Below are positions 24,980 to 61,620 of a stretch of DNA of 64,000 nucleotides, piece by piece (the first letter of the stretch is position 1; each line of letters opens with the position of its first letter). Position numbers and translations under genes: made by a program. The notes beneath the pieces were generated by a model that was not told the origin of the DNA, did no database searches, and worked only from the letters and a program-made list of their open reading frames with translations. The stretch is from Bacteroides zhangwenhongii (lineage in GTDB: Bacteria > Bacteroidota > Bacteroidia > Bacteroidales > Bacteroidaceae), in NCBI RefSeq assembly GCF_009193325.2, contig NZ_CP059856.1, positions 5,022,001 to 5,086,000 of the forward strand, in the 5' to 3' direction.

Positions 24980-24990
24980 TTTTGCAGCTA

Positions 24991-27900: not shown

Positions 27901-28233
27901 TTTCTGGGGGGCGTTCTGTTCACTTTTCAAAGTAAGCACCACTTGCTTACCCGATTCTATTTTATAACTAATAGATGATCCTTTGAAAACTTTTTCTAAA
28001 ACCGCATCAATACTTTCATTGTTCACTGTCAATGAAATTTTTTGATCCAATCCGGGAAGCTTATCCGTATAAAAGAAGCTGTAATCGGCCTTCTTTTCAA
28101 TCACTCGTATCGTCTGGCGTATCGTCTGATTCTTCACAGAGAAAGTGATCTGTGCACTTGCCTCTTGAGACACAAACAACAAGATACAACTGAACATAAC
28201 AAGCCTGAATATGATATGTAATTGTTTTCTCAT
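24991..28233 (-). CDS. SusC-like TonB-dependent transporter with STN domain (PUL B)
   Basis: Outer-membrane importer of 1,080 residues for the oligosaccharides handled by PUL B. Signal peptide (about 1-28), STN domain (about 30-105: TFSVKNQTIRQTIRVIEKKA), carboxypeptidase-like domain (about 114-195: ITGVVADRRGEPLIGVTVRV), plug (about 195-320: EEVVVVGYGFMKRKDITTAV; ILKDASSAAIYGARAANGVV) and barrel to the terminal Phe (GLNVEF). The STN domain links it to the FecR anti-sigma encoded upstream. The 226-base gap between the two genes holds signals for a divergent transcript, described separately. Confidence 0.97.
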   Translation of the reverse strand: MRKQLHIIFRLVMFSCILLFVSQEASAQITFSVKNQTIRQTIRVIEKKADYSFFYTDKLPGLDQKISLTVNNESIDAVLEKVFKGSSISYKIESGKQVVLTLKSEQNAPQKGDKKTITGVVADRRGEPLIGVTVRVEGENIGTATDINGRFSLEAPVGAKVSFSYIGYVSQSHTVNKQNVYNVSLSEDSQVLEEVVVVGYGFMKRKDITTAVSVVSTADIEERPIMTAAQAIQGKAAGIQVVQPSGMPGSGVTIRVRGATSVQASNEPLYVVDGLPSDDISNISPNDIESMQILKDASSAAIYGARAANGVVLITTKRGKIGAPQVKMSAYVGFSKLGKKIDALNTEQYKDLMKDLKAVSDVAPNIPESETRYVDWTDLFFGTGVNQNYQLSVANGTEKLQYFVSGGYSDEQGIVEKAHFNRYNFRANLDSEQTKWLKMALNFAYSHTGGQWVNESRSSLRAGSILSVVNTPPFMQKWNPYDPNEYDEQAYGARILNPLAANAADSNTNTDHINGSLGFTVDIFKGLKFKTTFGIELTNEHWDYYLDPISTSDGRGTKGRVEESFSRNFEWLFENLLTYDCSFNKHNLSILGGATQQRAQYNGSWMAGFDLAESYPDIHSISAANQLDKDACGSSASAWTLASFLGRVAYNYDSRYLLTVNFRADGSSRFAPGHRWGTFPSVSAGWRISGEKFMQPLQDIVTDLKLRAGWGMNGNQGGFGNYAYMASMSVSKLPVSEGNLYPGLAIKPGSAANKELTWEKTSQWNLGLDLTMFDSRLSFSVDAYYKKTTDLLLTVSLPENVVPSSVTRNDGEMVNKGMEFTLSSQNFKGNFQWNTDFNISFNRNKLTKLGLNKVYYYAEMYESKEKAVILKEGLPLGTFFGYISEGVDPETGDIIYRDLNGNGFIDPEDRTTLGNAQPKFIYGMTNTFSYAGFDLSVFLQGSQGNKIFNASRIDMEGMTDFRNQSVRVLDRWKRPGMITNVPRVGNTENNHNSSRFVEDGSYLRLKTVTLSYNFPKKWLNKIHLSRLQAYVTGQNLFTLTKYKGYDPEVNAFGGDSVAQGVDYGTYPQSRAVIFGLNVEF

Positions 28234-33004: not shown

Positions 33005-34339
33005 ATGAATGCAGCAAAGGTATTAGACGATCTGAAAAGAAGATTTCCCAATGAACCGGAGTATCATCAGGCAGTAGAAGAAGTACTTTCTACTATTGAG
33101 GAAGAATACAACAAACACCCTGAGTTCGATAAAGTAAACTTGATCGAACGTTTGTGTATCCCTGATAGAGTATATCAGTTCCGCGTGACTTGGATGGATG
33201 ATAAAGGTAACATTCAGACTAACATGGGTTACCGTGTTCAACATAACAACGCGATTGGCCCGTACAAAGGTGGTATCCGTTTCCACTCATCCGTGAATCT
33301 TTCTATCTTGAAGTTCCTTGCCTTTGAACAGACATTCAAAAACTCACTGACTACATTGCCTATGGGTGGCGGTAAAGGTGGTTCCGACTTCTCTCCCCGT
33401 GGTAAATCAAACGCAGAAGTAATGCGCTTCGTGCAAGCTTTCATGTTGGAATTGTGGCGTCACATCGGTCCTGAAACGGACGTTCCTGCCGGTGATATCG
33501 GTGTAGGTGGCCGCGAGGTAGGTTTCATGTTCGGTATGTACAAGAAACTGACTCACGAATTCACTGGAACATTCACAGGTAAAGGCCGCGAATTCGGAGG
33601 TTCACTGATTCGTCCGGAAGCGACAGGTTACGGTAACATTTACTTCCTGATGGAAATGCTGAAAACCAAAGGTACTGACTTGAAAGGTAAGACTTGCTTG
33701 ATTTCCGGTTCCGGTAACGTTGCTCAATACACTGCAGAAAAGGTTCTTGAACTCGGCGGTAAGGTTCTGACTATGTCTGACTCTGACGGTTACGTTTATG
33801 ATCCGGACGGTATCGACCGTGAGAAACTGGATTACATCATGGAATTGAAGAATCTGTATCGTGGCCGTATCCGTGAATACGCAGAAAAATATGGCTGCAA
33901 ATATGTAGAAGGTGCTCGTCCTTGGGGTGAGAAAGCAGATATCGCTCTGCCTTCTGCAACTCAGAATGAATTGAATGGTGACGATGCTAAGAAATTGGTT
34001 GCTAACGGTGTGATAGCTGTATCCGAAGGTGCTAATATGCCTTCTACTCCGGAAGCTATCCGCGTATTCCAAGAAGCCAAAATCCTTTATGCTCCGGGTA
34101 AAGCTGCCAATGCAGGTGGTGTATCAGTATCCGGTCTTGAAATGACTCAGAACTCTATCAAACTGAGCTGGAGCTCTGAAGAAGTAGACGAGAAGTTGAA
34201 GAGCATTATGAAGAATATCCATGCAGCTTGCGTTCAATACGGTACTGAAGCTGACGGATACGTAAACTATGTGAAAGGTGCTAACGTAGCCGGATTCATG
34301 AAGGTTGCCAAAGCAATGATGGCACAAGGTATCGTATAA
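33005..34339 (+). CDS. gdhA: Glutamate dehydrogenase (hexameric, probably NADP-specific)
   Basis: Assimilates ammonia by reductive amination of 2-oxoglutarate, or runs in reverse. The 444-residue protein is full length for the hexameric family I enzymes. The substrate domain contains YRVQHNNAIGPYKGGIRFH and the active-site block TTLPMGGGKGGSDFSPRG with the catalytic lysine; PAGDIGVGGREVGFMFG follows. The nucleotide domain has SGSGNVAQYTAEKVLELGG (GxGxxA fold), followed by TMSDSDGYVYDPDG; absence of an acidic residue right at the strand end fits NADP better than NAD, but this is not decisive. It has its own promoter and a strong terminator, so it is monocistronic. A paralogue lies at 50930-52267. 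Confidence 0.96.
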   Translation: MNAAKVLDDLKRRFPNEPEYHQAVEEVLSTIEEEYNKHPEFDKVNLIERLCIPDRVYQFRVTWMDDKGNIQTNMGYRVQHNNAIGPYKGGIRFHSSVNLSILKFLAFEQTFKNSLTTLPMGGGKGGSDFSPRGKSNAEVMRFVQAFMLELWRHIGPETDVPAGDIGVGGREVGFMFGMYKKLTHEFTGTFTGKGREFGGSLIRPEATGYGNIYFLMEMLKTKGTDLKGKTCLISGSGNVAQYTAEKVLELGGKVLTMSDSDGYVYDPDGIDREKLDYIMELKNLYRGRIREYAEKYGCKYVEGARPWGEKADIALPSATQNELNGDDAKKLVANGVIAVSEGANMPSTPEAIRVFQEAKILYAPGKAANAGGVSVSGLEMTQNSIKLSWSSEEVDEKLKSIMKNIHAACVQYGTEADGYVNYVKGANVAGFMKVAKAMMAQGIV

Positions 34340-34370
34340 TCAGCCACAGATATAAATAAGCTATAGTTAA

Positions 34371-34411
34371 AAACTCCCGCCTTCCGAAAGGAAGAACGGG
34401 AGTTTTTTTAT
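34371..34411 (+). terminator. Terminator of gdhA
   Basis: AAACTCCCG (34371-34379) pairs with CGGGAGTTT (34397-34405); an inner CTTCC-GAAA-GGAAG hairpin continues the stem; a T-run follows. Textbook intrinsic terminator. Confidence 0.9.
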
Positions 34412-34441
34412 CAATAAATAAGATAAAAAGCACAAAAAGAA

Positions 34442-34471
34442 TTGTCGGTATAGCGCAAATAGTTATCTTTG
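34442..34471 (+). promoter_or_regulatory. Promoter of the toxin-antitoxin pair
   Basis: TTG at 34442-34444, 19 bases, then TATCTTTG at 34464-34471. It is 35 bases before the antitoxin ATG. Confidence 0.6.
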
Positions 34472-34505
34472 TAATACTCAAGTACATAAAAGAAAGGAAC
34501 AGATC

Positions 34506-34787
34506 ATGAAAACGTTTGATGTAAATATACACTTAGCTGATTATTATTTTTCTATCCTCAATTCTCTGAGTGATAAAGCAAAGTTGTATTTGGTGAATAA
34601 ACTAACAGAATCCTTAATAAATAGTGCTGATAAAACTGAAAAAATTAAAGAAGCTGAGAAAGATAATGCTTTCCATAAATTGGCTGGCATATGGGCTAAC
34701 GATCCGGATATTGACAGAATAGAGAAATCTGTCTTGACAGGGCGAAGAAGTAATAAGACACGTAACCTGATACCATTTGACGAATGA
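34506..34787 (+). CDS. Antitoxin partner of PIN toxin
   Basis: 93-residue protein with no obvious DNA-binding ribbon. It has a helical N-terminal half (YYFSILNSLSDKAKLYLVNK) and a C-terminal segment HKLAGIWANDPDIDRIEKSV followed by a basic stretch (GRRSNKTRN), a pattern seen in antitoxins cotranscribed with PIN toxins, where the tail wraps the toxin active site. Its stop overlaps the start of the toxin gene (ATGA at 34784-34787), the usual coupled layout. The identification rests mainly on this pairing. Confidence 0.75.
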   Translation: MKTFDVNIHLADYYFSILNSLSDKAKLYLVNKLTESLINSADKTEKIKEAEKDNAFHKLAGIWANDPDIDRIEKSVLTGRRSNKTRNLIPFDE

Positions 34788-35188
34788 CCAAATATTTATT
34801 AGACACAAATATTTGTATATTCTTCCTGCAAGGAAAATATAACGTTCCTGCACGTATAAAAGAAATAGGACGAAAAAACTGTTATATTTCAGAAATAACA
34901 GTGGGAGAATTATTGTATGGTGCTGTATGTAGTAGCAAAAAAGAAGAACATCTCGCCCAAGTCAACGAATTTGTAAACTTGTTTGTTGTCCTGCCTATTT
35001 ATCCAATATTACCATTTTTTGCTGAATCTAAAGCAGAATTGCGCAAACAGGGACAGTTAATTGATGATTTTGACATATTAATCGGAGTCACAGCAGTAGC
35101 CAATAAAATGACTCTAGTTTCAGAAAACCTAAAGCATCTATCACGTATTCCCAACATTAAGACAGAGAATTGGATAATGAGAAAATGA
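34784..35188 (+). CDS. PIN-domain ribonuclease toxin (VapC type)
   Basis: 134-residue PIN-domain protein, probably a metal-dependent endoribonuclease toxin. The first acidic residue is D7 in YLLDTNICIFF; the second is E37 or E42 in YISEITVGELLYG; the third cluster is DDFDILIG (D94, D95, D97). The last strand region LVSENLKHLSRIPNI fits the family, although the usual Thr/Asn-Asn is Ser-Glu-Asn here. It follows and overlaps its antitoxin by 4 bases. The pair sits between the gdhA terminator and the end of an unrelated convergent operon, and is more AT-rich than gdhA, consistent with an acquired module. Confidence 0.88.
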   Translation: MTKYLLDTNICIFFLQGKYNVPARIKEIGRKNCYISEITVGELLYGAVCSSKKEEHLAQVNEFVNLFVVLPIYPILPFFAESKAELRKQGQLIDDFDILIGVTAVANKMTLVSENLKHLSRIPNIKTENWIMRK

Positions 35189-35253
35189 TAACATAGAGTA
35201 CCACAAGAGTTTCCACCGAATCCCTTTCACATTTTATGCACAAGCAACTTGTA

Positions 35254-35292
35254 CGGCACCCGAATCTCAGTATACATGAGTCCCGGGTGTCG
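35254..35292. terminator. Hairpin between convergent toxin gene and lipoprotein operon
   Basis: CGGCACCCG (35254-35262) pairs with CGGGTGTCG (35284-35292) with one G-T wobble, and CTCAGTATACATGAG inside is itself a palindrome. No T-run follows on either strand. It lies 65 bases past the toxin stop and about 80 bases past the operon end, so it may stop transcription from both sides. Confidence 0.4.
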
Positions 35293-35370
35293 TCACAACT
35301 ATCTTTGCAATAAAAGGTACGCACTATTACAGTTCACAACCGGAAGGAATACATTGAATAAGAGATAAAA

Positions 35371-36963
35371 CTAATCATCATAGTCATATTCCAAACTAAA
35401 GTCATCCACCCAAAGAGTAGCACCTTCCCCTCCAGTGAAATAATCGCCATACTTGCTGGCAGAACATACGACCAGAAGATATTTCGGTTTACGATTAACT
35501 GCTCGATATTCCAGTTCTAATTCAAGCTTTTGATATTCACTTACCGTCCTTCCTGTATTAAATTCAGCATAGGCAATCACATGAGAATCATTCTTATCAA
35601 ACAGTTTCCTTTCAGAATATTTAGTATAAACTCCTACCGGACTATCCCAATCACCTAGTGCTATATATATAGCACAAGTATCAGGCTTACCTTTATAAGA
35701 AACAAAACGTTTATAATCAAGCGGGGCATTCTTCTCACTCGGCAAATTATCAATCGGAGCCGTTGTATACTTATAATACGCTTTCAACTTTGTAGGTCTT
35801 GCCGTAAACGGTTTACCAAATTCCAACTTTCCATTTGTACCTACCGTTTCTAAGTATTTGCCGACATACAAGTTACCTGCTGCAAACTTTCCGATCCCTA
35901 CCAAACCTACAAATTTAGAAGACAGTTTTGCAGCCTGTCCTTTTCCATTCCAAGTTTCACTAGTCGGTATAGAATTACTATCCCCCATTTTAGTTGCTCC
36001 CTTATTACCTGTATCCCATATCTGCTCACCATTTTCAGCCCATGGATTCCAGACATCGTCAACTTGGTGCCAATTATCCAAAGAACCTCCCGGCAATACT
36101 ACCGCTTCTCCCGTTGTAAAAGTTAGAATTTCGCCATATTTATCGTTAGCAACTGCACGGCAATTATAAGCGGTAGAAGCTTTCAAATGGGGAACGCGTG
36201 CGGTGAAAGTTCCCCCATTTACCGTTATATAAGCCTCATCCACAGTTTTCCATTCTCCTGTTGAGACCTCACTGATTTCAAATCCGAAAACAGCCCCTTT
36301 TTTCCCTTGTCCGGACAGCCACACCACATTTGTCCAAGCATCAGCCGAAGACGTAACAACGTCATCACTAGTAGGCGACACATATAAAGTCCAAACCTCC
36401 GTTATGTCGTGATAGCTCACAGTGACCGTCTGACCGGACATAAAATCATGCAAAGCTGAGTAATCCGGTGCCATCGTACATCCTTCAGGACCTAGTTTCA
36501 GATCCTCTATTTGAATAGTACGCAGGCTAGTAGAAGTGGTCACATAAGCTACCACTAAACGATTTTCAACATCAAATATGGGCTCTCCAATCTGATCATT
36601 TACGACAAACCGACGTTCTATCGTCTGTCGGGCAACAATTGTCCATTCATAATTTTGATATAAAGACAGAGTAACCTTTCGAGGCTTTGTCAAATCCAGA
36701 ACTGAATTAACTGCCAAATCGGTTTTAGCTCCCTCTGTTAGTTCAAGCTTTGTAACTTTCACCTTTTTCAGGTTAACAGTTTCATCCAAATTCAATGTTA
36801 TCGTATTGGTTTCCGTATTAATAATAGCATTACCGGATTGACCTTCCACAACAATATCTAAAAACTGTAACTTAACGACCGGATAATCTATATCATTCTC
36901 TATGCATGATGTAATTAACAACATCATCCCCACCATTAAGCCATTTATATATATTCTTCTCAT
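35371..36963 (-). CDS. Surface-type lipoprotein with PCMD-like C-domain
   Basis: Unknown function. The 530-residue protein has a lipoprotein signal with Cys20 followed by IENDID, fitting surface export. Beta-rich repeats of Ig/fibronectin type occupy about 25-285 (for example WTIVARQTIERRFVVNDQIG; YITVNGGTFTARVPHLKAST). The C-terminal part (about 290-530) matches from memory the PCMD (putative carbohydrate metabolism) jelly-roll fold: SLDNWHQVDDVWNPW, FVGLVGIGKFAAGNLYVGKY, ASKYGDYFTGGEGATLWVDD. The same motifs recur in the 705-residue protein of the operon, so the two are paralogues. It is the last of six genes, 12 bases after the beta-barrel gene. The acidic aromatic-rich domain suggests glycan or surface ligand binding; not shown. 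Confidence 0.8.
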   Translation of the reverse strand: MRRIYINGLMVGMMLLITSCIENDIDYPVVKLQFLDIVVEGQSGNAIINTETNTITLNLDETVNLKKVKVTKLELTEGAKTDLAVNSVLDLTKPRKVTLSLYQNYEWTIVARQTIERRFVVNDQIGEPIFDVENRLVVAYVTTSTSLRTIQIEDLKLGPEGCTMAPDYSALHDFMSGQTVTVSYHDITEVWTLYVSPTSDDVVTSSADAWTNVVWLSGQGKKGAVFGFEISEVSTGEWKTVDEAYITVNGGTFTARVPHLKASTAYNCRAVANDKYGEILTFTTGEAVVLPGGSLDNWHQVDDVWNPWAENGEQIWDTGNKGATKMGDSNSIPTSETWNGKGQAAKLSSKFVGLVGIGKFAAGNLYVGKYLETVGTNGKLEFGKPFTARPTKLKAYYKYTTAPIDNLPSEKNAPLDYKRFVSYKGKPDTCAIYIALGDWDSPVGVYTKYSERKLFDKNDSHVIAYAEFNTGRTVSEYQKLELELEYRAVNRKPKYLLVVCSASKYGDYFTGGEGATLWVDDFSLEYDYDD

Positions 36964-36975
36964 ACGTTTCTAAAA

Positions 36976-37860
36976 TTACATACAAAGAGTAATACCAATG
37001 TTGATATTAAACAGATTAATCTTGAAGTTAGCGCCACTGCTCCTCCGCTTACCAGTTTCTCCCAAATTATTCTTCTGCTTCTCTATCCGGTACTTAAATC
37101 CGACAACTCCAAATGAGACTTCAGCGCATACATTCTGCATAATAAACACCGCCAAACCCGGATTTATCCCCAAATGAAGTTCATTTAACGTCGTTTCCGT
37201 TCGTTTCAAATTATCTCCCGTTCCACGAGAAAAACTAGATGTACCTCTATTATAAGAAAGAGTAGTTTCATTAAATAAACCGAAACGCTTACCGTGATCC
37301 AAGCCGACATAAGAACGGTGAAAGACTGCAGCCGAATAGGTATCTTCCGCATAACGCATATCTTTCAAAGAAACATCCAAATCTTCAACTGCAAGGGAAA
37401 CATTATCCAATTGAGCAATTGTATGGTTATATCCCAACTTCATACCTACTACCAAATTGTCCCGAATTGCATAGCCCCAGAAAGGCTTGACGGAGAAGGT
37501 ACGGAAGTTACAATCAAAATCTTTCAGAATAGAAAACAATAACCGACTGTCGTCACTATCAAAATTGACATACGAGAAAGTCAAACCTCCAATCCATTTA
37601 CCTTTCGGAATGAAACGGTAATTTTTGATTCCGCGATCAAAACGTCCGATAGCTCTCGTATGAATAATATCTGTTGAATCCAGCTGTTCTTCGTATTCCT
37701 CCTTCAGAAGAAAAACAGTATCACGAACAATAACCCTTTCGACAATTAAAGAATCCCTTCCATCCATCGTACGGAGAGTATCGCGTTGCTGTGCCTGTAT
37801 ACCCGGTATCCCGACCAACAAGCCCAATATACATATATATAATACTTTGTACATTTTCAT
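36976..37860 (-). CDS. Outer-membrane beta-barrel-like protein (294 aa)
   Basis: Unknown function. It has a Sec signal peptide (about 1-23, ending GIQAQ), an N-terminal linker of about 60 residues (MDGRDSLIVERVIVRDTVFL, repeated Asp/Arg/Val) and a barrel-like body of alternating hydrophobic strands to a C-terminal GITLCM. Its body is related to the adjacent 242-residue protein: both have a KGKWIGG or KGQWIVG first strand, a YAIRDNLVVGMKLGYNHT-like block and an ANFKINLFNINIGI or ANFKINLFSIGLGI end. The genes abut (37860/37861), which suggests a duplicated pair working together in the outer membrane with the operon's lipoproteins. Confidence 0.75.
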   Translation of the reverse strand: MKMYKVLYICILGLLVGIPGIQAQQRDTLRTMDGRDSLIVERVIVRDTVFLLKEEYEEQLDSTDIIHTRAIGRFDRGIKNYRFIPKGKWIGGLTFSYVNFDSDDSRLLFSILKDFDCNFRTFSVKPFWGYAIRDNLVVGMKLGYNHTIAQLDNVSLAVEDLDVSLKDMRYAEDTYSAAVFHRSYVGLDHGKRFGLFNETTLSYNRGTSSFSRGTGDNLKRTETTLNELHLGINPGLAVFIMQNVCAEVSFGVVGFKYRIEKQKNNLGETGKRRSSGANFKINLFNINIGITLCM

Positions 37861-38589
37861 TTATAAATAAAAGGCAATTCCCAAGCCGATAGAAAACAAA
37901 TTAATTTTAAAATTAGCGCTACTAGACGACCGTTCACCAACATAGACTTGATCTGTAGTTTGTTTCACCTTACTAAAGTTCAACCCAAGCACACCAATAC
38001 TAACTTCTACCGCCGTATAGTTATTAATAAAAGCTACAATACCGGGAGCTACACCAATGCTGAAATCTGTAGTTGTAGAATAGGTTCCGGTAACGGAATC
38101 ACCTCCCTTATTTACTACTTTCGACTGGCTTCCCCCCATTCCCAATTGTGTCTCACTAAAGAGTGCAAAACGTTTGCTACTTCCCAATGTCACATAATTA
38201 CGGAGGACAGCCATTGCTGAATACGAATGTTTCAACTGATAAAGATCGTCTACGTCAAACTGATTTTCTTCATCCAAATTGATAGACAATCCATCCAACT
38301 TTGTTAATGTCCGTCCATAGGCAAAACGCCCTCCGGCAGCCATATTATCTTTAAACGCATAACAGACCATCGGACTGACTTTAAAAGTATACCCATCAGA
38401 ATTAAATCCATCAAGTACCAAAAACTGATAGTTCTGCTCATTATGTTCCGAATATGAAACTGAGCTACCTACAATCCACTGTCCCTTAGGTATAAAGGTT
38501 CCCAATTTAATATCTCTTTTGAAGTCTTGCGCCCGAACACTGAATATGCCTAAAAACACAAGTGACAAGATAAAAGCTATTTTTTTCAC
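37861..38589 (-). CDS. Outer-membrane beta-barrel-like protein (242 aa)
   Basis: Unknown function. It has a signal peptide (about 1-20, ending VRAQD), then strands typical of a small barrel: GTFIPKGQWIVGSSVSYSEH, YTFKVSPMVCYAFKDNMAAG, RFALFSETQLGMGGSQSK, and a C-terminal strand NLFSIGLGIAFYL ending in Leu. It is a paralogue of the next gene downstream but lacks its N-terminal linker. It follows the 705-residue lipoprotein gene by 10 bases. Confidence 0.78.
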   Translation of the reverse strand: MKKIAFILSLVFLGIFSVRAQDFKRDIKLGTFIPKGQWIVGSSVSYSEHNEQNYQFLVLDGFNSDGYTFKVSPMVCYAFKDNMAAGGRFAYGRTLTKLDGLSINLDEENQFDVDDLYQLKHSYSAMAVLRNYVTLGSSKRFALFSETQLGMGGSQSKVVNKGGDSVTGTYSTTTDFSIGVAPGIVAFINNYTAVEVSIGVLGLNFSKVKQTTDQVYVGERSSSSANFKINLFSIGLGIAFYL

Positions 38590-38599
38590 GTATTTTATT

Positions 38600-40717
38600 T
38601 TATTCGTAAATCAATTCCAAATCATCCAACCACATCGTACTGCCTGTACTTCCGGTATAATAGTCTCCATACTTGCTAGCTGACGCAACTACAAGAATAT
38701 ACTTAGGTTTAACATCTTTCCGTCTATACTCTAGTTTTATCTTATGTTCAGTCCAGGCATTTACATTACCATCAATAATCAACTCTCCATAAGCTATTAT
38801 TTTAGAATCGTCTTTACTGAACAATGTTGTCTTATCCTTAGTATGCACTACAATGGGTTTATCCCAATCAGTTAATGCTACATATACAATAGCAGTATCC
38901 TGTATACCCTTAGGCGCATCAACCGTTTCGGAATAATCAATAGTGCCTAAAGTCGCACGATACCAGATAGAAAGTTCCGAAGGGCGGGATGCAAATTCAC
39001 GTCCAAAATCAAGAATACCTTGAGTCCCATCTTCTACACCAACAAATTTTCCGGTAAACAAATTCCCTGCAGCAAACTTCCCAATACCCAAGAAGCTCAC
39101 AAATTGCGACTTTAATTGAGCGGCACGTTTTCCACCATTCAATCCTACCCTGTCAATATAAGTAGTCACGTTTATATTCATCTTTGAAGAGCCTTTGTTA
39201 CCACTATCCCAGAACATTGCTTCACCTTCTCCATAAACCCACAAAGGTGAACTTCCTGACCAGTTTTCAAAGCCGCTATTCGGCAATTGCGCAGCTTCTT
39301 CCGTTGTAAACGAACAAACCACAGCCGAAGGAGTATTACCGGCCAATGCTTGATACTGATACTCTGTACCGTCTTCCAATCCAGTAAGTTTTGTTGTAAA
39401 AGTTACTCCATCTTCCCCTTTTACCGCCTCTACATTAGTCCAATTACTTTCGCCTTTCTTCCGGTAATTAAAGCTCAAGGGTTCCGTTGTCTCATGTATG
39501 ATTTCTCCTCTCAATTCGGCTCTTGAACTCCATACGTCTCCCACTACTACATCCTTTGTTAGAACAGAAGCGTTAGAAACAACGATTGACAAAATCCCGG
39601 TATTGCTCAACCCTTCCGCATCAATCGCACTCAAAGCAAAAGCATAGGAAGTTTCTGCGGTTGTCATCTTTCCAACCAAAGAAGATGTCAATGTCAATGT
39701 CAACACCCCAGCTTTTGTAGTCTCATCAAAAGCAGAAACAATCTGCAGTCCATTAGCGGCTAAAGCAGATATTTCATCTTCACCAAGATTAGCCAATTGA
39801 AGCGTATTACCCGAAAATCCCCATTCGGTCAGTTTATCACAGGCAAGAGTAGCCTCCGTTAAAGCTGAAGTGACCGCTATTTTAAAAGAGAGTTCACTAG
39901 CCGCATTCAAAGCATATATATAAGGTGTACCAAAATCAAAGCCTACTCCTCTAAAAGACGGACGTTGCTTAACCTCCACCTCATCTTCTATCGTCTCCAA
40001 AGGAGTCTCGTCCACAGTCACTTGCAAACTAGCACCGCCATCTTCAATATCATCCACAAAATTCAGCTTGAAAGTATAGTGCGTAGCTGATTCTGCCAAA
40101 ACTTCACCTTCTTTCTCAAATTCTTTTTCATTCTGCAACACTCCGGTAAACTTCCACTTCAACGAACTGTCCCCCTCAGACAACATATAATAACCTATAG
40201 CACCGACATTCTCCTGCGTAAAGTCCAATGAACCGAACTTTGTGTATACGGTCATCGTATAATTCTTAAATAATTCGTTCACATTATCACTGAAACTTAC
40301 TGTAGACAATACATTGGCAATACTGCATTTCACATTCTGCTCCGTCACAGTTCCATTCGTTATCTCGAACGGAACCATCCCTTTATAATAAGTTTTATCA
40401 AAAGAAGCAGGGACCGAATCTCCTGCGGTAACCTTAACATTATAGGCTCCTGACTTCAATTGTAGCTCTTCGGGTACTTCAGAAAGTCCTTTATAATAAC
40501 GAATCAGCCCCTTGCCATTATAAAGGCGAACCTCACAATTCTTTTCCAACTCCGCCTGTTCATCATCGGTCACAGTGCGCGAAGTTACTACTTTAATGGA
40601 CGAATCCACGTTGACTTTCATACGTAGTATTCCCTCTCCGTCCAAACGTTCTGTTTCCGTACATCCATTTAACAGCACATACGTCAGAAACACCAATATA
40701 TAGTAAGCGTTCCTCAT
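38600..40717 (-). CDS. DUF4493/PCMD-like surface lipoprotein (705 aa)
   Basis: Unknown function. Lipoprotein signal with Cys19 followed by TETERLDGEG, an acidic surface-export signal. The N-terminal part (about 28-235) looks like DUF4493: LRMKVNVDSSIKVVTSR, a sandwich domain with EELQLKSGAYNVKVTAGDSV and VKCSIANVLSTVSFSDNVNE. Ig-like segments follow (about 250-470), and the C-terminal part (about 480-705) is PCMD-like: NSGFENWSGSSPLWVYGEG, FVSFLGIGKFAAGNLFTGKF, ASKYGDYYTGSTGSTMWLDD. It is third in the operon, 2 bases after the 422-residue protein gene. Family names are from memory. Confidence 0.8.
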   Translation of the reverse strand: MRNAYYILVFLTYVLLNGCTETERLDGEGILRMKVNVDSSIKVVTSRTVTDDEQAELEKNCEVRLYNGKGLIRYYKGLSEVPEELQLKSGAYNVKVTAGDSVPASFDKTYYKGMVPFEITNGTVTEQNVKCSIANVLSTVSFSDNVNELFKNYTMTVYTKFGSLDFTQENVGAIGYYMLSEGDSSLKWKFTGVLQNEKEFEKEGEVLAESATHYTFKLNFVDDIEDGGASLQVTVDETPLETIEDEVEVKQRPSFRGVGFDFGTPYIYALNAASELSFKIAVTSALTEATLACDKLTEWGFSGNTLQLANLGEDEISALAANGLQIVSAFDETTKAGVLTLTLTSSLVGKMTTAETSYAFALSAIDAEGLSNTGILSIVVSNASVLTKDVVVGDVWSSRAELRGEIIHETTEPLSFNYRKKGESNWTNVEAVKGEDGVTFTTKLTGLEDGTEYQYQALAGNTPSAVVCSFTTEEAAQLPNSGFENWSGSSPLWVYGEGEAMFWDSGNKGSSKMNINVTTYIDRVGLNGGKRAAQLKSQFVSFLGIGKFAAGNLFTGKFVGVEDGTQGILDFGREFASRPSELSIWYRATLGTIDYSETVDAPKGIQDTAIVYVALTDWDKPIVVHTKDKTTLFSKDDSKIIAYGELIIDGNVNAWTEHKIKLEYRRKDVKPKYILVVASASKYGDYYTGSTGSTMWLDDLELIYE

Positions 40718-40719
40718 CC

Positions 40720-41988
40720 TTATTCTCCTTCCGCTACCGAAATCAATGTTAATGTTTTCTCTACACTATTTCCGGACTGGTCGATAGCCGTAATAATAAA
40801 TTTGTGAGTAGCCGGACCATAAATGCCAAGTAGTGGCGTGAATTTAGTAATATCAAACTTCAAAGTCGTTTTGCCCAAAACCTGGTCACCTACAGGAAAG
40901 CCTAATGATTCCAATCCCGTTCTCAAATCTCCCGGATAGGCCAAATCAAATTCAGAAGCCAGTCCAACTTCCTCCAATAGCTCCGGAGTCAATGTTTCCG
41001 AATCAATCTTCACTTTAAGATTCGAGAATCCATTCTCCGCTTCAATGTTTACAACCACCGTAATACCAATCAGATTTCCACCTTCATCTCTCTTGATAGG
41101 CACATCCAAACTCTCATCGATATCGAACCCGTTTCCCACAATAGTCGGCGCTTTTCCGCTAGGCGTAGGCGGATTCGGATCTATTATCGTTTCTTCTTCC
41201 TCTCTATTTGTAAATCCTTTCTCTATTACTGTACACGTTGCAACAATCACCAGTTTGAGTTTAGTGAATCCTCCCTCAATATAGCCATCATCATTGACAT
41301 ACTTCAAATAGAATTTTATGAGACGATGTTGACCAGGCTTTACATTCTTAATCGGATAAGGCACTTCCCTTGCCACCCCATCAATAGTTCCGGTCATCAC
41401 CGCTTTCATAATATTATTGCCATCTGCATTCGACTTGAAATATCCATTTCTGGTTTCGTCATACGCAAATGCTAAGGAAGCGTCTCCCACAGTAACAGTG
41501 GTTTTCACATCCTCGCCCATCACTTCTTTCAACTTATCATCGTATGTCACAGACACCTTGATATTATTCAACTTACATACCAATGGTTCCAAGTCCTTTA
41601 CTTTATTAGCCTCAATAGTGAAAGATTCTTCGGCATAATAAAAAGGAACTTCAAACTCTGCCGGTTGCACCTCGTGTGACAAAGCTTGTACTGTATAGCT
41701 CCCTACTCTGAGCGTAAATATCTCAGGCAACTCGCTATATTTCCATTCACGTACCAAATTTTGTTCCGCATCGTAAATACGAATCAAATAATTATCCGTA
41801 TTTACTTCGGACGCACGAGTGATAGGAGTAGAAGAGGAAACCTCAACCGACAAGCCTTTCAAGGAAGCCAGATTCACAGAACCCTCACCCAATTCTACTG
41901 TATCATTATCCATCTTCTCACGATCGCAAGCTGTAAAAGAAAGAATTACTGCCAATGCGATAAACAGTATGTATGTTACCTTTTTCAT
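40720..41988 (-). CDS. DUF4493-like surface lipoprotein (422 aa)
   Basis: Unknown function. Lipoprotein signal with Cys21 followed by DREKMDND, a surface-export-type sequence. Residues about 35-260 resemble the DUF4493 part of the two larger neighbours (GSVNLASLKGLSVEVSSS; EIFTLRVGSYTVQALSHEVQ; LEPLVCKLNNIKVSVTYDDK), and about 275-420 is an Ig-like domain (FDIDESLDVPIKRDEGG; ATHKFIITAIDQSGNSVEKT). It lacks the C-terminal PCMD-like domain, so in the operon it may be a shorter partner or competitor of its paralogues. It lies 11 bases after the first gene of the operon. Confidence 0.78.
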   Translation of the reverse strand: MKKVTYILFIALAVILSFTACDREKMDNDTVELGEGSVNLASLKGLSVEVSSSTPITRASEVNTDNYLIRIYDAEQNLVREWKYSELPEIFTLRVGSYTVQALSHEVQPAEFEVPFYYAEESFTIEANKVKDLEPLVCKLNNIKVSVTYDDKLKEVMGEDVKTTVTVGDASLAFAYDETRNGYFKSNADGNNIMKAVMTGTIDGVAREVPYPIKNVKPGQHRLIKFYLKYVNDDGYIEGGFTKLKLVIVATCTVIEKGFTNREEEETIIDPNPPTPSGKAPTIVGNGFDIDESLDVPIKRDEGGNLIGITVVVNIEAENGFSNLKVKIDSETLTPELLEEVGLASEFDLAYPGDLRTGLESLGFPVGDQVLGKTTLKFDITKFTPLLGIYGPATHKFIITAIDQSGNSVEKTLTLISVAEGE

Positions 41989-41999
41989 ATTTCGTTGTT

Positions 42000-44519
42000 T
42001 TAATATATCAATTTTACATCATCAATTGTCAATACGCTACCGACATGGCGAGAATCGCCATAGCCTGCCCTCCAAGCACCTTTACTTCCTTGAATAGCTA
42101 ATGTCGCAGGAGAATCCAAACTGCTGGATAAAAAGACAACAGTTATATAAGCAGCTTTTTCTGTTGTCTTAGCTATAGAAACAGTACCTTTCTCATAAGT
42201 ATCCACAGGATTCGATATAAGCAATTCTCCTCTAGCTATCTCTTTCTTCTCTGCATTATATAACACAGCATAAGCTTTCGCGGATTCATTATTGTATGAA
42301 TAATATTTATAATAAAACTCAACTGCGGAAGGACGAGAATTAAAGGTATGCCCCAAAGTTTCTTTCTGAGATGCCCGGTCATAAGTACCGATGAACAACG
42401 ATCCTGCCGTTCTATAGTCTACATCCTCTTGAGCACTTTCTTGACTCAGCCAATTATTAGCCCCATGACCGACTGTCGAAATTTCCATTGCAGACGTTCC
42501 TCTATGTGATGCGATTGTTAACGATTGCCCTCCAAATTTATTAAGATGATTATAAGCCGTCCAACCATCGTACGATGTGGGTACTGTACTTGGATACGAT
42601 GCATAGAACCAAGAAGCAACTCCATCATACGATTGAGTTGTTTTATCATTACGCGAACTCCACCAACTAGTAGCACTCGGATAAAAAGCCCATACTTTTT
42701 CTCCACCACTGAGCACAATAGTCTTATACCAAACCTGTTTTCCCGTCCAATCCTCAAAATCACTATTAGGTATTTGTGCAGCGACTTCCGTCGTTATCTC
42801 CAACTCATTTTCCGCTTTCACATCTCCCGATACAGCTCTCAACGTATATTTATTAGTATTTAGAGGATCTTCAGGCAATCCCGTTATTTCAATGACATCA
42901 CCATCTTTTGTTTGAGTAGGTGTCACCCATGTTCCAGTTTCATACTCCGAAGACTTAATATACTCAATAACAATCGGTTGAGTTTTCATATACTCCTTAT
43001 CTTTCCCTACAACATGTATAGTAGCTTTTGTTGCCCATACATCCCCTTCAGAAGCTTCCAGACCAAATACAGGAGGATTGACTCCAACAGAAACAGATAA
43101 AGTACGCACACCGCAAGTCACATAAACCAGGAAGTTATGCGACGTTATAAAAGGTAAAGCTAATGTTACTTGATGTTGAATACCGTCTGTAAGTACACCA
43201 GAGACATCTATATCCGTTAAGACTTCCTCCTTTAGATATTGGAACTTAACTCTGGAAATATCTCCATCCAACGTAACAGGAATAGTAATTGCTTGAAGTC
43301 CGACATTTACATTATCCACAGTCCCTACTGCAAACTGATTATCCTGCACGTTCACCTTTATGACTTCATCAACAGCATTGACTCTTCCTGCCTTATCAGT
43401 CACCACAAGAGAAAAAGAGACTTCACCATCATCACTCAATAAATAGGGTATTACCTCAGCAAAATCCAACGTAGCCATCTTTTCCACATTAGTACTCAAT
43501 CCCCGCATGGACAAGCCTAATGATTTCAATTTCTCTAATGTTTCTCCGGCGAGATTGACCAAATCTACAGAAGTCGGCCAACCTTGTGCAAGTAAAGAAG
43601 GCGACACCGTAGTCAACACACACTTTTTAATCCCATTACGTGCAGTAACAAGCGTAGAAAGAGGAAAAATCGTACTACCCTCTTTCACATCCTGCACCAC
43701 ACCGGATTCATATCCGGAACGAGTAAAAAATGGAGGTTGTATGTTCAATGCTTCATCAGAGACATCTATTTCCACCGGCTTCTCCACAGTAGTTTTGTCA
43801 AATGAAATCTTCAATGTAGCGCTCCCCGCATCCACATCCAATTTTATATGATAAAACTCACGAGGCTTGGCCTCATCAATTTCCCCAACTTCCCACTTGG
43901 CAGTCTGCCCGTTCTGATTCACGACATCGGCATATATAGTAATAACGCCCGGCTTCACATAAGCCGCACGCACTTCATCTTTAACAAAAGTAATAGAACT
44001 TCCGCCATCAGACTGGATGACAGTAGAATAATCAGAAAAGTACTTTTTAAATGCATCTGTGTATTCCACAGACAGTTTCACATTCGTCAAATAGCAGGTG
44101 ATACTAGCTTCAACAGTCTCATCATCTTCCACCGTAATTTCTTGCGTTCCCTCATAATAAGGAGATTCAAAGCCCTCTTTTTCCGGATTACCGCAATACG
44201 CTTTCAATGTATAAGTCCCCACCGGAACAACAGCATATTTAGGAAACTCGCTAAACTTATCCCACGAAGTTTTAACGACATTTCCATCCATCAAAGCAAT
44301 CGTAAAGTCTCCAACATCAGGTACTAAATCATCTTCCTCTGTATTCTCTTCTCCACTATCACCGACCTCAGCACGTGTAGTAGTAGCGTCAATGACATCC
44401 TGACTAGTAGCCAGATTCAAAGCAAGCATACCTGTTGCCATATTGGATCGCTTTTGTTCGCTTTCACAAGCAGACAGTACTATTGCCATCAACAACAATA
44501 CTCTAAAAACTTTTCTCAT
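42000..44519 (-). CDS. DUF4493/PCMD-like surface lipoprotein (839 aa), first gene of operon
   Basis: Unknown function. Lipoprotein signal with Cys18 followed by ESEQKR. The N-terminal DUF4493-like region (about 28-255) contains GMLALNLATSQDVIDATT, an acidic insertion (GEENTEEDD) and YAVVPVGTYTLKAYCGNPEK. Ig-like domains span about 260-590. The C-terminal PCMD-like domain (about 600-839) carries IPNSDFEDWTGKQVWYKTIV, GSLFIGTYDRASQKETLGH and SVLTIDDVKLIY. It is aromatic-rich (Trp, Tyr), as in glycan-binding jelly rolls. It is the first gene of a six-gene unit of about 9.1 kb with a -7 box about 93 bases upstream. Confidence 0.8.
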   Translation of the reverse strand: MRKVFRVLLLMAIVLSACESEQKRSNMATGMLALNLATSQDVIDATTTRAEVGDSGEENTEEDDLVPDVGDFTIALMDGNVVKTSWDKFSEFPKYAVVPVGTYTLKAYCGNPEKEGFESPYYEGTQEITVEDDETVEASITCYLTNVKLSVEYTDAFKKYFSDYSTVIQSDGGSSITFVKDEVRAAYVKPGVITIYADVVNQNGQTAKWEVGEIDEAKPREFYHIKLDVDAGSATLKISFDKTTVEKPVEIDVSDEALNIQPPFFTRSGYESGVVQDVKEGSTIFPLSTLVTARNGIKKCVLTTVSPSLLAQGWPTSVDLVNLAGETLEKLKSLGLSMRGLSTNVEKMATLDFAEVIPYLLSDDGEVSFSLVVTDKAGRVNAVDEVIKVNVQDNQFAVGTVDNVNVGLQAITIPVTLDGDISRVKFQYLKEEVLTDIDVSGVLTDGIQHQVTLALPFITSHNFLVYVTCGVRTLSVSVGVNPPVFGLEASEGDVWATKATIHVVGKDKEYMKTQPIVIEYIKSSEYETGTWVTPTQTKDGDVIEITGLPEDPLNTNKYTLRAVSGDVKAENELEITTEVAAQIPNSDFEDWTGKQVWYKTIVLSGGEKVWAFYPSATSWWSSRNDKTTQSYDGVASWFYASYPSTVPTSYDGWTAYNHLNKFGGQSLTIASHRGTSAMEISTVGHGANNWLSQESAQEDVDYRTAGSLFIGTYDRASQKETLGHTFNSRPSAVEFYYKYYSYNNESAKAYAVLYNAEKKEIARGELLISNPVDTYEKGTVSIAKTTEKAAYITVVFLSSSLDSPATLAIQGSKGAWRAGYGDSRHVGSVLTIDDVKLIY

Positions 44520-44611
44520 ATTGGTTTATATCTCTAAATTAGTCCGGAATAAATATATCTATTTCTCCTTGTGACATCTTCTTTTGTACTCTTCCTCTCT
44601 AAAACTTTGCG

Positions 44612-44619
44612 CAAAAGTA
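44612..44619 (-). promoter_or_regulatory. Bacteroides -7 box for the DUF4493/PCMD operon
   Basis: The minus strand reads TACTTTTG (TAnnTTTG). Transcription would start near 44606, giving a leader of about 87 bases. No -33 TTTG is seen at 19-21 bases; one at 28 bases (CAAA, 44648-44651) is too far. Confidence 0.5.
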
Positions 44620-44925
44620 CAGTTTTCTTTCTTTATAATAAAGTATCCAAAGAAAGATTTATCCCGAAATCTGAAAATGAGAACACAATTTGTTTGCTTG
44701 ACCTAAAAAAAAGACCATAATTTTAAGCATACAACAAAAGATTTCCGCTTTTTAGATGAAAAACAGAACGTTTCCATCTCATGTTTCAAATAAAAACCTA
44801 CTTATTCAAACAAAAAGAGATTAAAAATTCATCCAATCCAACATGATCAATTCTAGGAAAAGAAAAATGTACTGCAAATATTTCATAGAAACAATGCACC
44901 GATTCATACTAGAAAAGTATTTTTC

Positions 44926-45072
44926 ATCTCTCATAAAAGCAACATAAACATCAGATTACCAAACATTTACATTATGAGAGATCTTTTTTTATTATACATC
45001 TCTCATACTTTCGCCCCGCATCTCTCATGCTTTCTCGCTATATCTCTCATGCTTTCGCCTTACACCTCTCAT
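44926..45072. repeat. 22-bp-period repeat array B (ATCTCTCAT words)
   Basis: ATCTCTCAT occurs at 44998, 45020 and 45042, with a one-mismatch copy at 45064: four units exactly 22 bases apart, sharing a following GCTTTCGCC-like block. Outlying copies are at 44926 (same strand) and 44974 (reverse complement). Two more reverse-complement copies are at 45422 and 45444, again 22 apart, just after the stop of the receiver/PPDK_N gene. The two sets could pair as a long inverted repeat centred at 45236. Confidence 0.75.
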
Positions 45073-45181
45073 CGTAAGCCGTATTTTGCAAAACAACTAA
45101 TGGGATTTTATATAAAGACTACCGTTTAATCTCCTGTCTTTCAGCATATAACGTCACATTTTCTACAAGATATCACAACCG

Positions 45182-45272
45182 TTCCACTACAGTAGATAGT
45201 TCTGTGCACTAATGTGAACAGTTCCGTTCACTAGAGTACACAAAACTGTTCACTAGAGTGGAAGGTTATGAT
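45182..45272. repeat. 22-bp-period palindromic repeat array C (CACTA words)
   Basis: CACTA starts at 45185, 45207, 45229 and 45251, exactly 22 bases apart; GTTCACTAGAGT occurs at 45226 and 45248. The block is also an imperfect palindrome centred at 45222.5: TTCCACT (45182-45188) with AGTGGAA (45257-45263), GTGAAC (45214-45219) with GTTCAC (45226-45231), TGTGCACT with AGTACACA (one mismatch). It resembles array A in period and symmetry but not in sequence. Confidence 0.75.
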
Positions 45273-45421
45273 GTTGGTAAAATAATCCAAAAACAAAGGC
45301 TAAATATGCCAACAACATAAGTAAACTGACATATAAACCACTATTAAATTAGAGGCAGAAAACACGATGAAAAAGGTCTGTGAAACCTACACAACAATCT
45401 ATATCCCAGTTCCGGGATATC

Positions 45422-45452
45422 ATGAGAGATGAATCGAGAAAGAATGAGAGAT
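45422..45452. repeat. Inverted outlying copies of array B
   Basis: ATGAGAGAT at 45422-45430 and 45444-45452, 22 bases apart, reverse complements of the array B word. The second copy ends 8 bases from the stop codon of the receiver/PPDK_N gene, so it lies in that gene's 3' untranslated region. Confidence 0.65.
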
Positions 45453-45460
45453 GCAGGGTT

Positions 45461-48430
45461 CTACACTCCTGGCATCAGCACCACCCCAAGTTTCTTCTTT
45501 CCATCCATCTTGACCACTATCGGTTTCTCAAAGCGGACATGGCGGAGGAACTTCGTTTCTTCCACAGCCGGTTGCGCATTGAGGAACTCTTGGTTGTAGA
45601 CACCATCATTCATAAAGGCATTGATCGTGAAGTAACCCACTCCGAACGAGGTAAGATTCTGGAAGAAATGCGTACCCTGGCTGGGATCAACGCGGTAATT
45701 AGTCAGTCCCGCCTCCACTATCACACGGGCTGCCGAGATGTGCGGCCACTTCACCGGAATACCCAGCCACGTGTCGCTGCTTCCCCAACGTCCGGGACCG
45801 ACAAGCACATAGTTCTTCCCCTCGTTCAAGAACTGCTGATTGATCTTTTCTATCTCCCAAGCAATAGCCTGATTATTGGAAGCACTGTAGCCGTCCGTCT
45901 TCACATAGACAACATCCTGAATCTCGTTCATAATGCCATGTCCCAGCGAATTATACGAGCGAAGAATCACCTCATCATCCGGTATATCGTTCAAATCCTC
46001 ATCCAGCATCTCCTTGCTATCCACAATCGGACGGATCTGCAAAAGATAGAAAGTACCCGTCTTATCCTGATCACGACTTAACGTTGCCGCAAACTCAATC
46101 TCAACCGGACGACGCATCTCCTGCTCCCCGTATTTCAAGACCAACTGCAAAATACGAGCCAACGGGAAAACATCATGTTGCAGGATATTAGCAAACGTGA
46201 TCACCTTGCGTCCTCCCGGATACAAGCCATCCCGGATTATCTGGTCGTACGGGTCGTATGTAGAAGCGATATACTGCAAAGCACCGTCATTTTCCGCCTC
46301 TTTCACATGAAGTTTCAACAGATTAAAGCCGTCATCGATCGAAAAGTCATGCCCTGCATTCTTCAAGTCCAACGCATAGAAACGGGTCTGAGTCTCTTTC
46401 AAAGCTATTTCCATCTCGCTGGTCTGTAACACCTGATTGGGATGATAAGGAGAAAAACGAAGCGTCATACCGCCATCCACAATATATTTTCCCAATCCAA
46501 GAGCCAGATTCACCGTTCCTTCCTCCGCCTTTTCATCACCTAGCGGATAATAATTGAGCGAGCGTGCCACACCGGACATGGAAGGATAATAACGTTCTCC
46601 GTATTGGTTACCAACGACTTCCTGCAAAATGACAGCCATCTTTTCCTGGTCTATCACGTTCGACGTAGCTTGCATATAAGCCTTGCTGTCACGGAAGTAT
46701 ACCGAAGCATACACTCCCTTGATGGCATCGGAAAGCATACGCAGCATCTCATAGCGGTCGTCCAGATAAGGAATCATATACGTATTGTAAATCCCCGCAA
46801 ACGGCTGATAATGGGAGTCTTCCAACAGAGAAGAAGAACGGATGGCAATCGGTGACTTCACCACATCAAAGAAAGTAAAGAAGTCTTCCACCAACCGGTC
46901 CGGCAACTTCGCTTTCAGGAAATACCTCAGAATCAAATCATCATCCGCATCCGAAAGGGCAATCTGATACAGATTGTTCGTGTCCATAAACTCATCGAAC
47001 ACATCCGTACAAAGCACCACCGTCTTGGGAATGGCTACCCGTGCATTCTCAAACTCATCAAACTCCGGATGACGCTTCACCATGTTATCTATGAAAGCCA
47101 GTCCGCGCCCTTTACCTCCGAGCGAACCGTCACCGATACGCGCGAAATTGGAATAACGGTCGAAACGGTCCCGTTTAAAGACGGCAACGACTCCCTGATT
47201 CTTCATCTTGCGATATTTCACGATCGCCTCAAAAATGATACGGCGATGGGCGTCCACATCCTGAAGACTGCTCCATGTAATCGGTTTCAAGAACTCCGCC
47301 ACGGGAAACATAGCCCGCGAATAAAGCCAGCGGGACACATGATTACGGCTAATGTGATATAAGAATGATTCCGCAGGAACGGCAAACAGGATATTCTGCA
47401 ACTCTTTCAGATTCCGTACACGGGCAATCTCCTCCCCCGTCTCCGGATTACGGAAAACAAAATCACCGAAACCGAAGTTATCGGAAACGATACGGCGCAG
47501 GTCGACATCCATCTTCTTGGAATTCTTGTCAATAAAGCTGGCGCCGTATTTTGCCGCATAGGAAGCATTCTCCGACTCGGACGACTGGATAATCAAGGGT
47601 ACGAACGGATCATTCTTACGTATCTCGGCACACAGCTTGATACCCGCCAGACCGTCTTTCTCTCCCCGCTCCACCTTCGGGAAACGTACATCCGTGATCA
47701 CCCCCAATATATTATTCTGATACTTACGGTAAATATTCATTGCCTCCTGATACGTACGCGCCAACACGATTTTAGGCCGTCCGCGCATACGAAGCGTACG
47801 CTGGTGCGCATTCAGAGCCTCTGTAGAGAACTCCTGACTCTGCTTCAACACGAACTTATACAGATTGGGAAGAATGGAAGAATAGAAGCGAATGCCGTCT
47901 TCCACAACAAGTATCAACTGTACTCCTACCTCCTGCACGTCATGCTCCAGATTCATCTTGTCCTCCATCAGCTTAATGATAGAAACCAGCAAATCGGTAT
48001 TGCCCAGCCAGCAGAAAACGTACTCGAAAGCACTCAGATCCTCATTGATAATCCGTTTGGTAATACCGTGACTGAAAGGAGTCAGAATGACGATAGGAAT
48101 GTGTTCATATTTCTCCTTGATATGCCGTCCGATGTCGAAACTGTCATTATCTCCCGTACTCGGCATACAAATCACCAGGTCGAATGACATACTTTCCAAC
48201 TGCGCCAATGCCTCCTCTTCGGTAGACACCTGCGAGAAACGGGGCGGATAACGCAGAGAGAGCGAAGTATATTCATTAAAAATCTTCTCATCGATACGTC
48301 CGTCATCTTCGAGCATGAAAGCGTCGTACGGATTGGCTATCAGCAGCACGTTGAAAATTCGCCGGGTCATCAAATTGGCGAACTGGGTATCTTTGAAGTA
48401 AAGCTGGTTTAATTTATATTTACTAAGCAT
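45461..48430 (-). CDS. Receiver-domain/PPDK_N (PEP-pyruvate ATP-grasp) fusion protein without His domain
   Basis: 989-residue soluble protein of unknown role. Residues about 25-135 and 170-320 look like two CheY-type receiver domains; the second keeps an acidic pocket (LVVEDGIRFY), a candidate phospho-Asp (GVITDVRFPK) and the conserved Lys (FIDKNSK). The PPDK_N nucleotide-binding fold follows (about 430-830): GDGSLGGKGRGLAFIDNM, VKSPIAIRSSSLLEDSHYQP and FYLLQIRPIVDS, as in PEP synthase and pyruvate phosphate dikinase. The mobile phosphohistidine domain (TSH motif) and the PEP/pyruvate barrel are absent; the last 150 residues carry GPGRWGSSDTWLGIPVKW and GVGYFTINAF. It cannot be a normal PEP synthase. 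It may be a phosphotransfer or nucleotide-dependent signalling enzyme, or act with a separate partner. A -7 box lies about 55 bases upstream. Confidence 0.9.
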   Translation of the reverse strand: MLSKYKLNQLYFKDTQFANLMTRRIFNVLLIANPYDAFMLEDDGRIDEKIFNEYTSLSLRYPPRFSQVSTEEEALAQLESMSFDLVICMPSTGDNDSFDIGRHIKEKYEHIPIVILTPFSHGITKRIINEDLSAFEYVFCWLGNTDLLVSIIKLMEDKMNLEHDVQEVGVQLILVVEDGIRFYSSILPNLYKFVLKQSQEFSTEALNAHQRTLRMRGRPKIVLARTYQEAMNIYRKYQNNILGVITDVRFPKVERGEKDGLAGIKLCAEIRKNDPFVPLIIQSSESENASYAAKYGASFIDKNSKKMDVDLRRIVSDNFGFGDFVFRNPETGEEIARVRNLKELQNILFAVPAESFLYHISRNHVSRWLYSRAMFPVAEFLKPITWSSLQDVDAHRRIIFEAIVKYRKMKNQGVVAVFKRDRFDRYSNFARIGDGSLGGKGRGLAFIDNMVKRHPEFDEFENARVAIPKTVVLCTDVFDEFMDTNNLYQIALSDADDDLILRYFLKAKLPDRLVEDFFTFFDVVKSPIAIRSSSLLEDSHYQPFAGIYNTYMIPYLDDRYEMLRMLSDAIKGVYASVYFRDSKAYMQATSNVIDQEKMAVILQEVVGNQYGERYYPSMSGVARSLNYYPLGDEKAEEGTVNLALGLGKYIVDGGMTLRFSPYHPNQVLQTSEMEIALKETQTRFYALDLKNAGHDFSIDDGFNLLKLHVKEAENDGALQYIASTYDPYDQIIRDGLYPGGRKVITFANILQHDVFPLARILQLVLKYGEQEMRRPVEIEFAATLSRDQDKTGTFYLLQIRPIVDSKEMLDEDLNDIPDDEVILRSYNSLGHGIMNEIQDVVYVKTDGYSASNNQAIAWEIEKINQQFLNEGKNYVLVGPGRWGSSDTWLGIPVKWPHISAARVIVEAGLTNYRVDPSQGTHFFQNLTSFGVGYFTINAFMNDGVYNQEFLNAQPAVEETKFLRHVRFEKPIVVKMDGKKKLGVVLMPGV

Positions 48431-61242: not shown

Positions 61243-61257
61243 AGGACGCATACGGAC

Positions 61258-61325: not shown

Positions 61326-61620
61326 CACTACAAAGATACGGACTTTCCTCATATCTCCAAATTTTCGAGGCAAAGCAGGAACATTTATAACACGGTTTAA
61401 TAGATATCAGATATTCGTTAACATTTAACGTAGTTAAATCTAAAAATTAACGAATGGCCCATCATAATATAGACAAGAAGAACAACGGAGAGTTTCACAC
61501 AACTTTTAAAGAATAACTTAAAGAAAAGTTTTCCAAAACGGAAAACTTTCTGTATCAGCAAGAAAGAAAAGTTTCCCAAAATTTAATGTTAAAAGCGAAC
61601 CAAGCTATTGGATTATCTTC

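Follow-up and report, generated by a model that had tools for sequence, protein, structure and literature searches.

Operon architecture and gene products

The window analyzed here is a stretch of 64,000 nucleotides from Bacteroides zhangwenhongii, and our subject is an operon within it made of six minus-strand open reading frames (ORFs), which run from position 44519 down to position 35371 with intergenic gaps of 11, 2, 10, 0 and 12 bases. They encode four lipoproteins (P1, P2, P3 and P6) and two related barrel-like proteins (B1 and B2):

42000..44519, minus strand: P1, lipoprotein of 839 residues with DUF4493 (29–254), a stretch without Pfam match and a weak C-terminal PCMD (616–838)
40720..41988, minus strand: P2, lipoprotein of 422 residues with DUF4493 and a second β domain (Ig-like according to weak matches in relatives)
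38600..40717, minus strand: P3, lipoprotein of 705 residues with DUF4493, a weak FN3-like stretch and a C-terminal PCMD, a layout resembling that of a tip pilin
37861..38589, minus strand: B1, 242 residues, GTG start, predicted eight-stranded outer-membrane barrel, core copy
36976..37860, minus strand: B2, 294 residues, B1 paralogue extended at its N-terminus, not present in single-barrel loci
35371..36963, minus strand: P6, lipoprotein of 530 residues, of which 51–262 match the DUF4960 protein of PDB 8a9y, with a C-terminal PCMD; proposed lipid-held base

DUF4493 is matched by P1 (E 1.5e-46), P2 (3.6e-40) and P3 (2.9e-45), and PCMD by P3 (7.7e-42) and P6 (8.9e-46). The PCMD match of P1 is weak (E 1.4e-4, below the cut-off in the Pfam scan of the window); in a separate PCMD search, this region taken together with its neighbours reached 30.5 bits for a cut-off of 28. 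All three DUF4493 matches of the source genome, and three of its five PCMD matches, fall in the operon. B1 and B2 are 36% identical and have no Pfam match of their own. From the lipid-bearing Cys onward, the four lipoproteins begin with the acidic stretches CESEQ, CDREK, CTETE and CIEND. Pfam detects no SusC/D, enzyme or regulator and no FimB/Mfa2-type anchor among the six products; the SusC/SusD pairs that we checked in the window (23504–28233 and 9570–14712) sit apart from the operon.

These results bear out what a sequence-only reading of this DNA had described, i.e. a single tight six-gene unit with four lipoproteins whose mature ends are acidic, an N-terminal DUF4493-like domain shared by three products, a C-terminal domain shared by three, two small barrel-like duplicates, and neither SusC/D nor enzyme nor regulator. 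For the capsule role that it also envisaged, we found nothing among the six genes.

Conservation and co-occurrence of the genes

We scanned genome contigs for the barrel (142 relatives, 80 of which were kept), and aligned the window copy of P2 with 64 of the 65 listed relatives and the two window barrels with 115 of the 125 listed relatives. The gene order of these cassettes is stable: DUF4493(+PCMD), DUF4493, DUF4493+PCMD, barrel, often a second barrel, and PCMD lipoprotein; some loci contain additional DUF4493 genes. The same order is seen again across the Bacteroidales as well as in Flammeovirga and Persicobacter; the barrel relatives found in Flammeovirga, Persicobacter and Parabacteroides replicons each lie within a similar gene set. 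DUF4493 genes are located upstream of the barrel in 67 of the 74 loci offering more than 3 kb of room, and of 85 loci, 77 have a PCMD protein devoid of DUF4493 next to the barrel; in the remaining eight, the barrel lies at or near the end of the available sequence. Under a stricter rule, such a PCMD protein stands beside the barrel in 71 of 72 loci (L099 not counted). All 20 aligned barrels from single-barrel loci are of the B1 type, while two-barrel loci contributed 50 B1-type and 45 B2-type barrels.

Among 301 genomes of the family, DUF4493 scores above the cut-off in 39 (and below it in two more) and the barrel exceeds 200 bits in 40; the two coincide in 39 genomes, while G485 has the barrel only. 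Fifteen further genomes contain weaker barrel matches (18–128 bits), none with a DUF4493 match, and in the two of them that were read the barrel adjoins a PCMD protein of about 280 residues (L139, L140). In the sample of the order (295 genomes), a strong barrel (best match above 175 bits) is present in 25 genomes, including 24 with DUF4493, and DUF4493 is present in 34, ten of which have no strong barrel; within the stretches fetched, nine of these ten carry one DUF4493 gene and G801 carries three. At the level of the phylum, three of 395 genomes pass the DUF4493 cut-off. Within the genus, barrel and DUF4493 are both found in seven of 22 genomes, and their presence is therefore patchy. Note that these counts do not represent independent events, because the samples include related genomes.

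Seven loci consist of barrel and PCMD genes with no DUF4493 nearby, and six of the seven genomes have DUF4493 elsewhere: in G395, G396, G397 and G401, a separate contig, distinguished by its length, bears DUF4493(+weak PCMD), DUF4493 and DUF4493+PCMD genes (L185–L187, L190), and in two Flammeovirga genomes (G398, G400) the DUF4493 genes are on other contigs, where the stretches read contain no barrel. G399, the seventh genome, lacks DUF4493, and its contig is identical to that of G879. The linkage between barrel and DUF4493 survives physical separation, which speaks for a shared function. Altogether, the block is more than a chance grouping.

Some cassettes have additional neighbours. Five large proteins are encoded at the head of cassettes in Rikenellaceae, Alistipes and one uncultured Bacteroidales: the Mfa_like_1 fimbrillin model is matched by two of them, and the other three have no match at all. 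Downstream of Parabacteroides cassettes, two proteins bear Listeria-Bacteroides and InlB-type repeats, which are known from adhesins. Solitary DUF4493 genes were seen in genomes without a strong barrel (L173–L181), three of them (L174, L175, L178) near genes that look like sugar-nucleotide or polysaccharide-type genes. We rejected the idea that the cassette is phage cargo, as no relative was confirmed in viral contigs (0 of 52 pattern stretches), and likewise plasmid cargo, for which the records with a cassette number just three (640, 859 and 92 kb), all called non-mobilizable.

Predicted folds of P2 and B1

Structures were predicted for P2 and B1. In the P2 model (predicted local distance difference test score, pLDDT, of 88), residues 33–258 match FimA/Mfa fimbrillin structures, the DUF4493 domain being predicted to adopt the two-lobed transthyretin-like fold of the fimbrillin superfamily. 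The resemblance of DUF4493 to fimbrillins is weak at the sequence level, and P1 and P2 alone have no match among PDB sequences. Like fimbrillin precursors, DUF4493 proteins appear to be made as lipoproteins: a lipobox-type Cys precedes the domain in 257 out of 267, the other ten having no recognized Cys or an open N-terminus. DUF4493 is probably a pilus-subunit domain of the fimbrillin-like prepilin type.

The B1 model comprises eight transmembrane strands and is OmpA-like, although B1 is only 9% identical to the OmpA transmembrane domain (1qjp); OMP_b-brl is matched at E < 0.1 by 29 of 117 barrel relatives. Since the modelled barrel has eight strands, B1 would be too narrow for a secretion pore, and a role of the barrels as secretion pore or usher was rejected on this ground.

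A putative maturation site in DUF4493 proteins

The alignment of 257 DUF4493 proteins reveals a practically invariant Gly before the first strand, followed by a Ser/Thr-Arg/Lys-small site. The predicted sites in the operon are as follows:

44370..44378, minus strand: predicted maturation site of P1, T48-R49-A50 (sequence and family statistics)
41812..41820, minus strand: predicted maturation site of P2, T57-R58-A59 (family statistics and low-pLDDT segment 57–59)
40574..40582, minus strand: predicted maturation site of P3, S46-R47-T48 (sequence and family statistics)

Residues 57–59 form one of the three segments of the P2 model with a pLDDT under 50. Of the 267 proteins collected, 257 were aligned (238 with distinct N-termini) and 247 entered a loop test in which each loop was shuffled 300 times: the [Ser/Thr]-[Arg/Lys]-[small] motif occurs in 206 of the 247 loops, compared to 42 on average and at most 56 after shuffling, and still in 187 of 228 when identical N-termini are counted singly. 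The basic position is Arg in 70% and Lys in 23% of the sequences. Hence, as a sequence motif, the Arg/Lys maturation-site feature of the fimbrillin superfamily is found in DUF4493 proteins. Classical FimA-family proteins from relatives (19 of 30 ORFs, read by eye) have [ST][RK] at a similar place in 18 cases, the lone exception being the copy of the source genome itself. In Flammeovirga and Persicobacter (L019, L021, L088), the loop Arg is retained in all seven aligned DUF4493 proteins, the residue before it being A, L, Q, F or R and not S/T. A candidate protease is also at hand: the source genome has one clostripain-family match, and at least one was found in six of the eight other cassette genomes searched, the two without any being Flammeovirga genomes. 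An enlarged cassette (L141, 3045–18221) contains nine DUF4493 genes and two barrels; by eye, a TR site follows the first strand in all nine.

P6 and the proposed membrane base

P6-type proteins differ from the DUF4493 lipoproteins at their N-terminus. They rarely contain the above motif in the same range (12 of 71, versus 204 of 257 DUF4493 proteins), and they carry a strongly conserved lipid-proximal motif:

36880..36906, minus strand: conserved lipid-proximal motif of P6, C20 to P28 (statistics of P6-type proteins)

The pattern C-x(1,2)-N-[DN]-[ILVFYM] is present in 68 of 77 P6-type proteins, six of the nine that do not match having one extra residue before N, and in just 4 of 257 DUF4493 proteins. 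With an E of about 7e-5, the N-terminal half of P6 (residues 51–262) matches the DUF4960 protein in the solved structures 8a9y, 8aa0 and 8aa2, a protein that is part of a Bacteroides glycan-uptake complex. The motif, the scarcity of the putative cleavage site and the DUF4960 match together suggest that P6 is not shed as a subunit but serves as a base held by its lipid. P6 resembles Sus-type surface glycan-binding lipoproteins, such as the DUF4960 protein of 8a9y, in its N-terminal region and in being a lipoprotein, but differs from them by its C-terminal PCMD and by the lack of SusC/D beside it.

Of the parts compared, B1 varies least (mean pairwise identity 0.52) and DUF4493 most (0.28–0.29), as expected if the membrane part is constrained while exposed subunits vary. 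One result weighs against a special pairing of B1 with P6: across 63 loci, B1 distances track those of the P3 DUF4493 domain best (r 0.845), compared to 0.685 for the P6 PCMD.

Proposed assembly and alternative explanations

The predicted P2 fold, the Arg/Lys site of DUF4493, the eight-stranded B1 model and the linkage of these genes by order and co-occurrence lead us to propose, with a probability of roughly 0.55, that the operon encodes an adhesive assembly resembling a type V pilus, in which cleaved DUF4493 subunits are mounted on a base made of a dedicated barrel and a lipoprotein. The fold is supported by structure prediction and the site by statistics; cleavage, polymerization, anchoring and ligand binding are what we infer from them. 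P1, P2 and P3 would reach the surface as lipoproteins, where an Arg-specific protease (clostripain, encoded elsewhere in the genome) would cut the site and remove the lipid together with the first strand; the groove thus opened would be filled by a strand that another subunit donates. P3, possibly together with P1, would present the C-terminal PCMD as tip-like binding domains, while P6, as a rule devoid of the cleavage site, would keep its lipid and form the membrane base with B1 (and B2), the barrels possibly serving as fibre anchors. The assembly may bind glycans or surfaces.

The likeness to type V pili (FimA-E and Mfa1-5 of Porphyromonas gingivalis, and the type V pili of Bacteroides) lies in the lipoprotein precursors, the predicted two-lobed β fold, the Arg/Lys site after the first strand and the tip-like subunits bearing extra C-terminal domains. 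In contrast, the subunits encoded by the operon belong to another sequence family, DUF4493, no FimB/Mfa2-type anchor is recognized, and the cassette has one or two dedicated barrels as well as a PCMD lipoprotein with a conserved lipid-proximal motif. It is conceivable, with the odds rather against it, that these cassettes define a distinct class of Bacteroidota surface fibre, for which each locus would supply at least three different DUF4493 subunits, rather than a single stalk pilin used over and over, to build a short hetero-fibrillum whose composition is fixed; it would stand on a dedicated eight-stranded barrel and PCMD lipoprotein base, with PCMD as binding heads.

The sequence-only reading had pictured a surface complex or fibre held by barrels and proposed to check whether the six genes co-occur. 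They do, gene order and genome counts agreeing that the block is conserved, and the idea of a complex or fibre linked to barrels stands; that the barrels anchor it is plausible. Its contention that the set has no known role fails, because the predicted DUF4493 fold of P2 corresponds to that of pilus proteins already known, the type V (FimA/Mfa) fimbrillins, which is the sort of match that it had itself named as speaking against it; a processing-type site is found in the same place. In short, the observation was right, and the most likely identity of the set is a fimbrillin-type system that has a barrel and a lipoprotein base of its own.

Alternatively, the lipoproteins could stand side by side in a non-polymeric glycan-binding complex at the surface, with PCMD binding carbohydrate, the barrels holding the complex together and the Arg site merely serving to shed proteins. 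The DUF4960 match of P6, the match of PCMD to solved proteins named putative glycoside hydrolase and the occurrence of barrel and short PCMD pairs without adjoining DUF4493 (L139, L140) all point this way; however, the six products include neither SusC/D nor enzymes, the conserved site is of the kind that prepilin maturation would use and the predicted DUF4493 fold resembles that of a pilin. We regard this explanation as unlikely. More doubtful still is an ordinary type V pilus cluster with the barrels as incidental neighbours: fold, site and lipoprotein route are indeed predicted to be those of known fimbrillins, and ten DUF4493 genomes of the order lack a strong barrel, but in the family DUF4493 accompanies the strong barrel in 39 of 40 genomes, even when the two are on separate contigs, and Pfam recognizes no Mfa2/FimB-type anchor among the six products. 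A role of the barrels in exporting the lipoproteins or flipping them to the surface, at which the close linkage of barrel and lipoprotein genes might hint, is very improbable.

With the type V pilus-like reading, DUF4493 gains a likely identity, a fimbrillin-like prepilin domain, with an exact cut site predicted in each of P1, P2 and P3, and a barrel-linked fimbria-like system is indicated in many gut Bacteroidales and some Cytophagales. In the open-licence literature searched, we found no mention of DUF4493, "putative carbohydrate metabolism domain" or "PCMD domain-containing protein", and the matches for PCMD with Bacteroides look unrelated by title. The ligands of Bacteroides type V fimbriae are still little known (PMC12632263); a surface feature of common gut bacteria is therefore made directly testable.

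Upstream region and neighbouring genes

Upstream of the operon, we noted one candidate promoter:

44612..44642, minus strand: promoter candidate of the Bacteroides type, TTTA-19-TACTTTTG, some 100 bases ahead of the P1 gene

Similar promoter words occur in three close relatives (L022, L023, L026), and the -7 word is found in 29 of 71 upstream regions, compared to 9.6 expected from shuffles. An invertible promoter was rejected, the potential arms being only imperfect (43 bases, 84%), 359 bases apart and built of short repeats.

Between the operon and a PPDK-like gene lie ATGAGAGAT-type repeats (44918–45072 and 45413–45453), partly with a 22-base period; the exact 15-mer GAAAGCATGAGAGAT has two copies in the source genome, both in this repeat region. 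The product of the PPDK-like gene (45461–48430) contains a response-regulator domain followed by a Pyruvate phosphate dikinase ATP-binding domain, and in 14 of the 80 scanned loci the cassette is directly preceded by a gene of similar size (985–993 residues, by size only). At the other end, what looks like a toxin-antitoxin pair (34506–35188) adjoins the operon: the gene for a 93-residue protein without Pfam match overlaps that for a PIN-domain protein. Rfam gives no match within 34000–46500; farther away in the window are a FopS small RNA at 61255–61326 (minus strand) and a Cobalamin riboswitch at 61622–61811 (plus strand).
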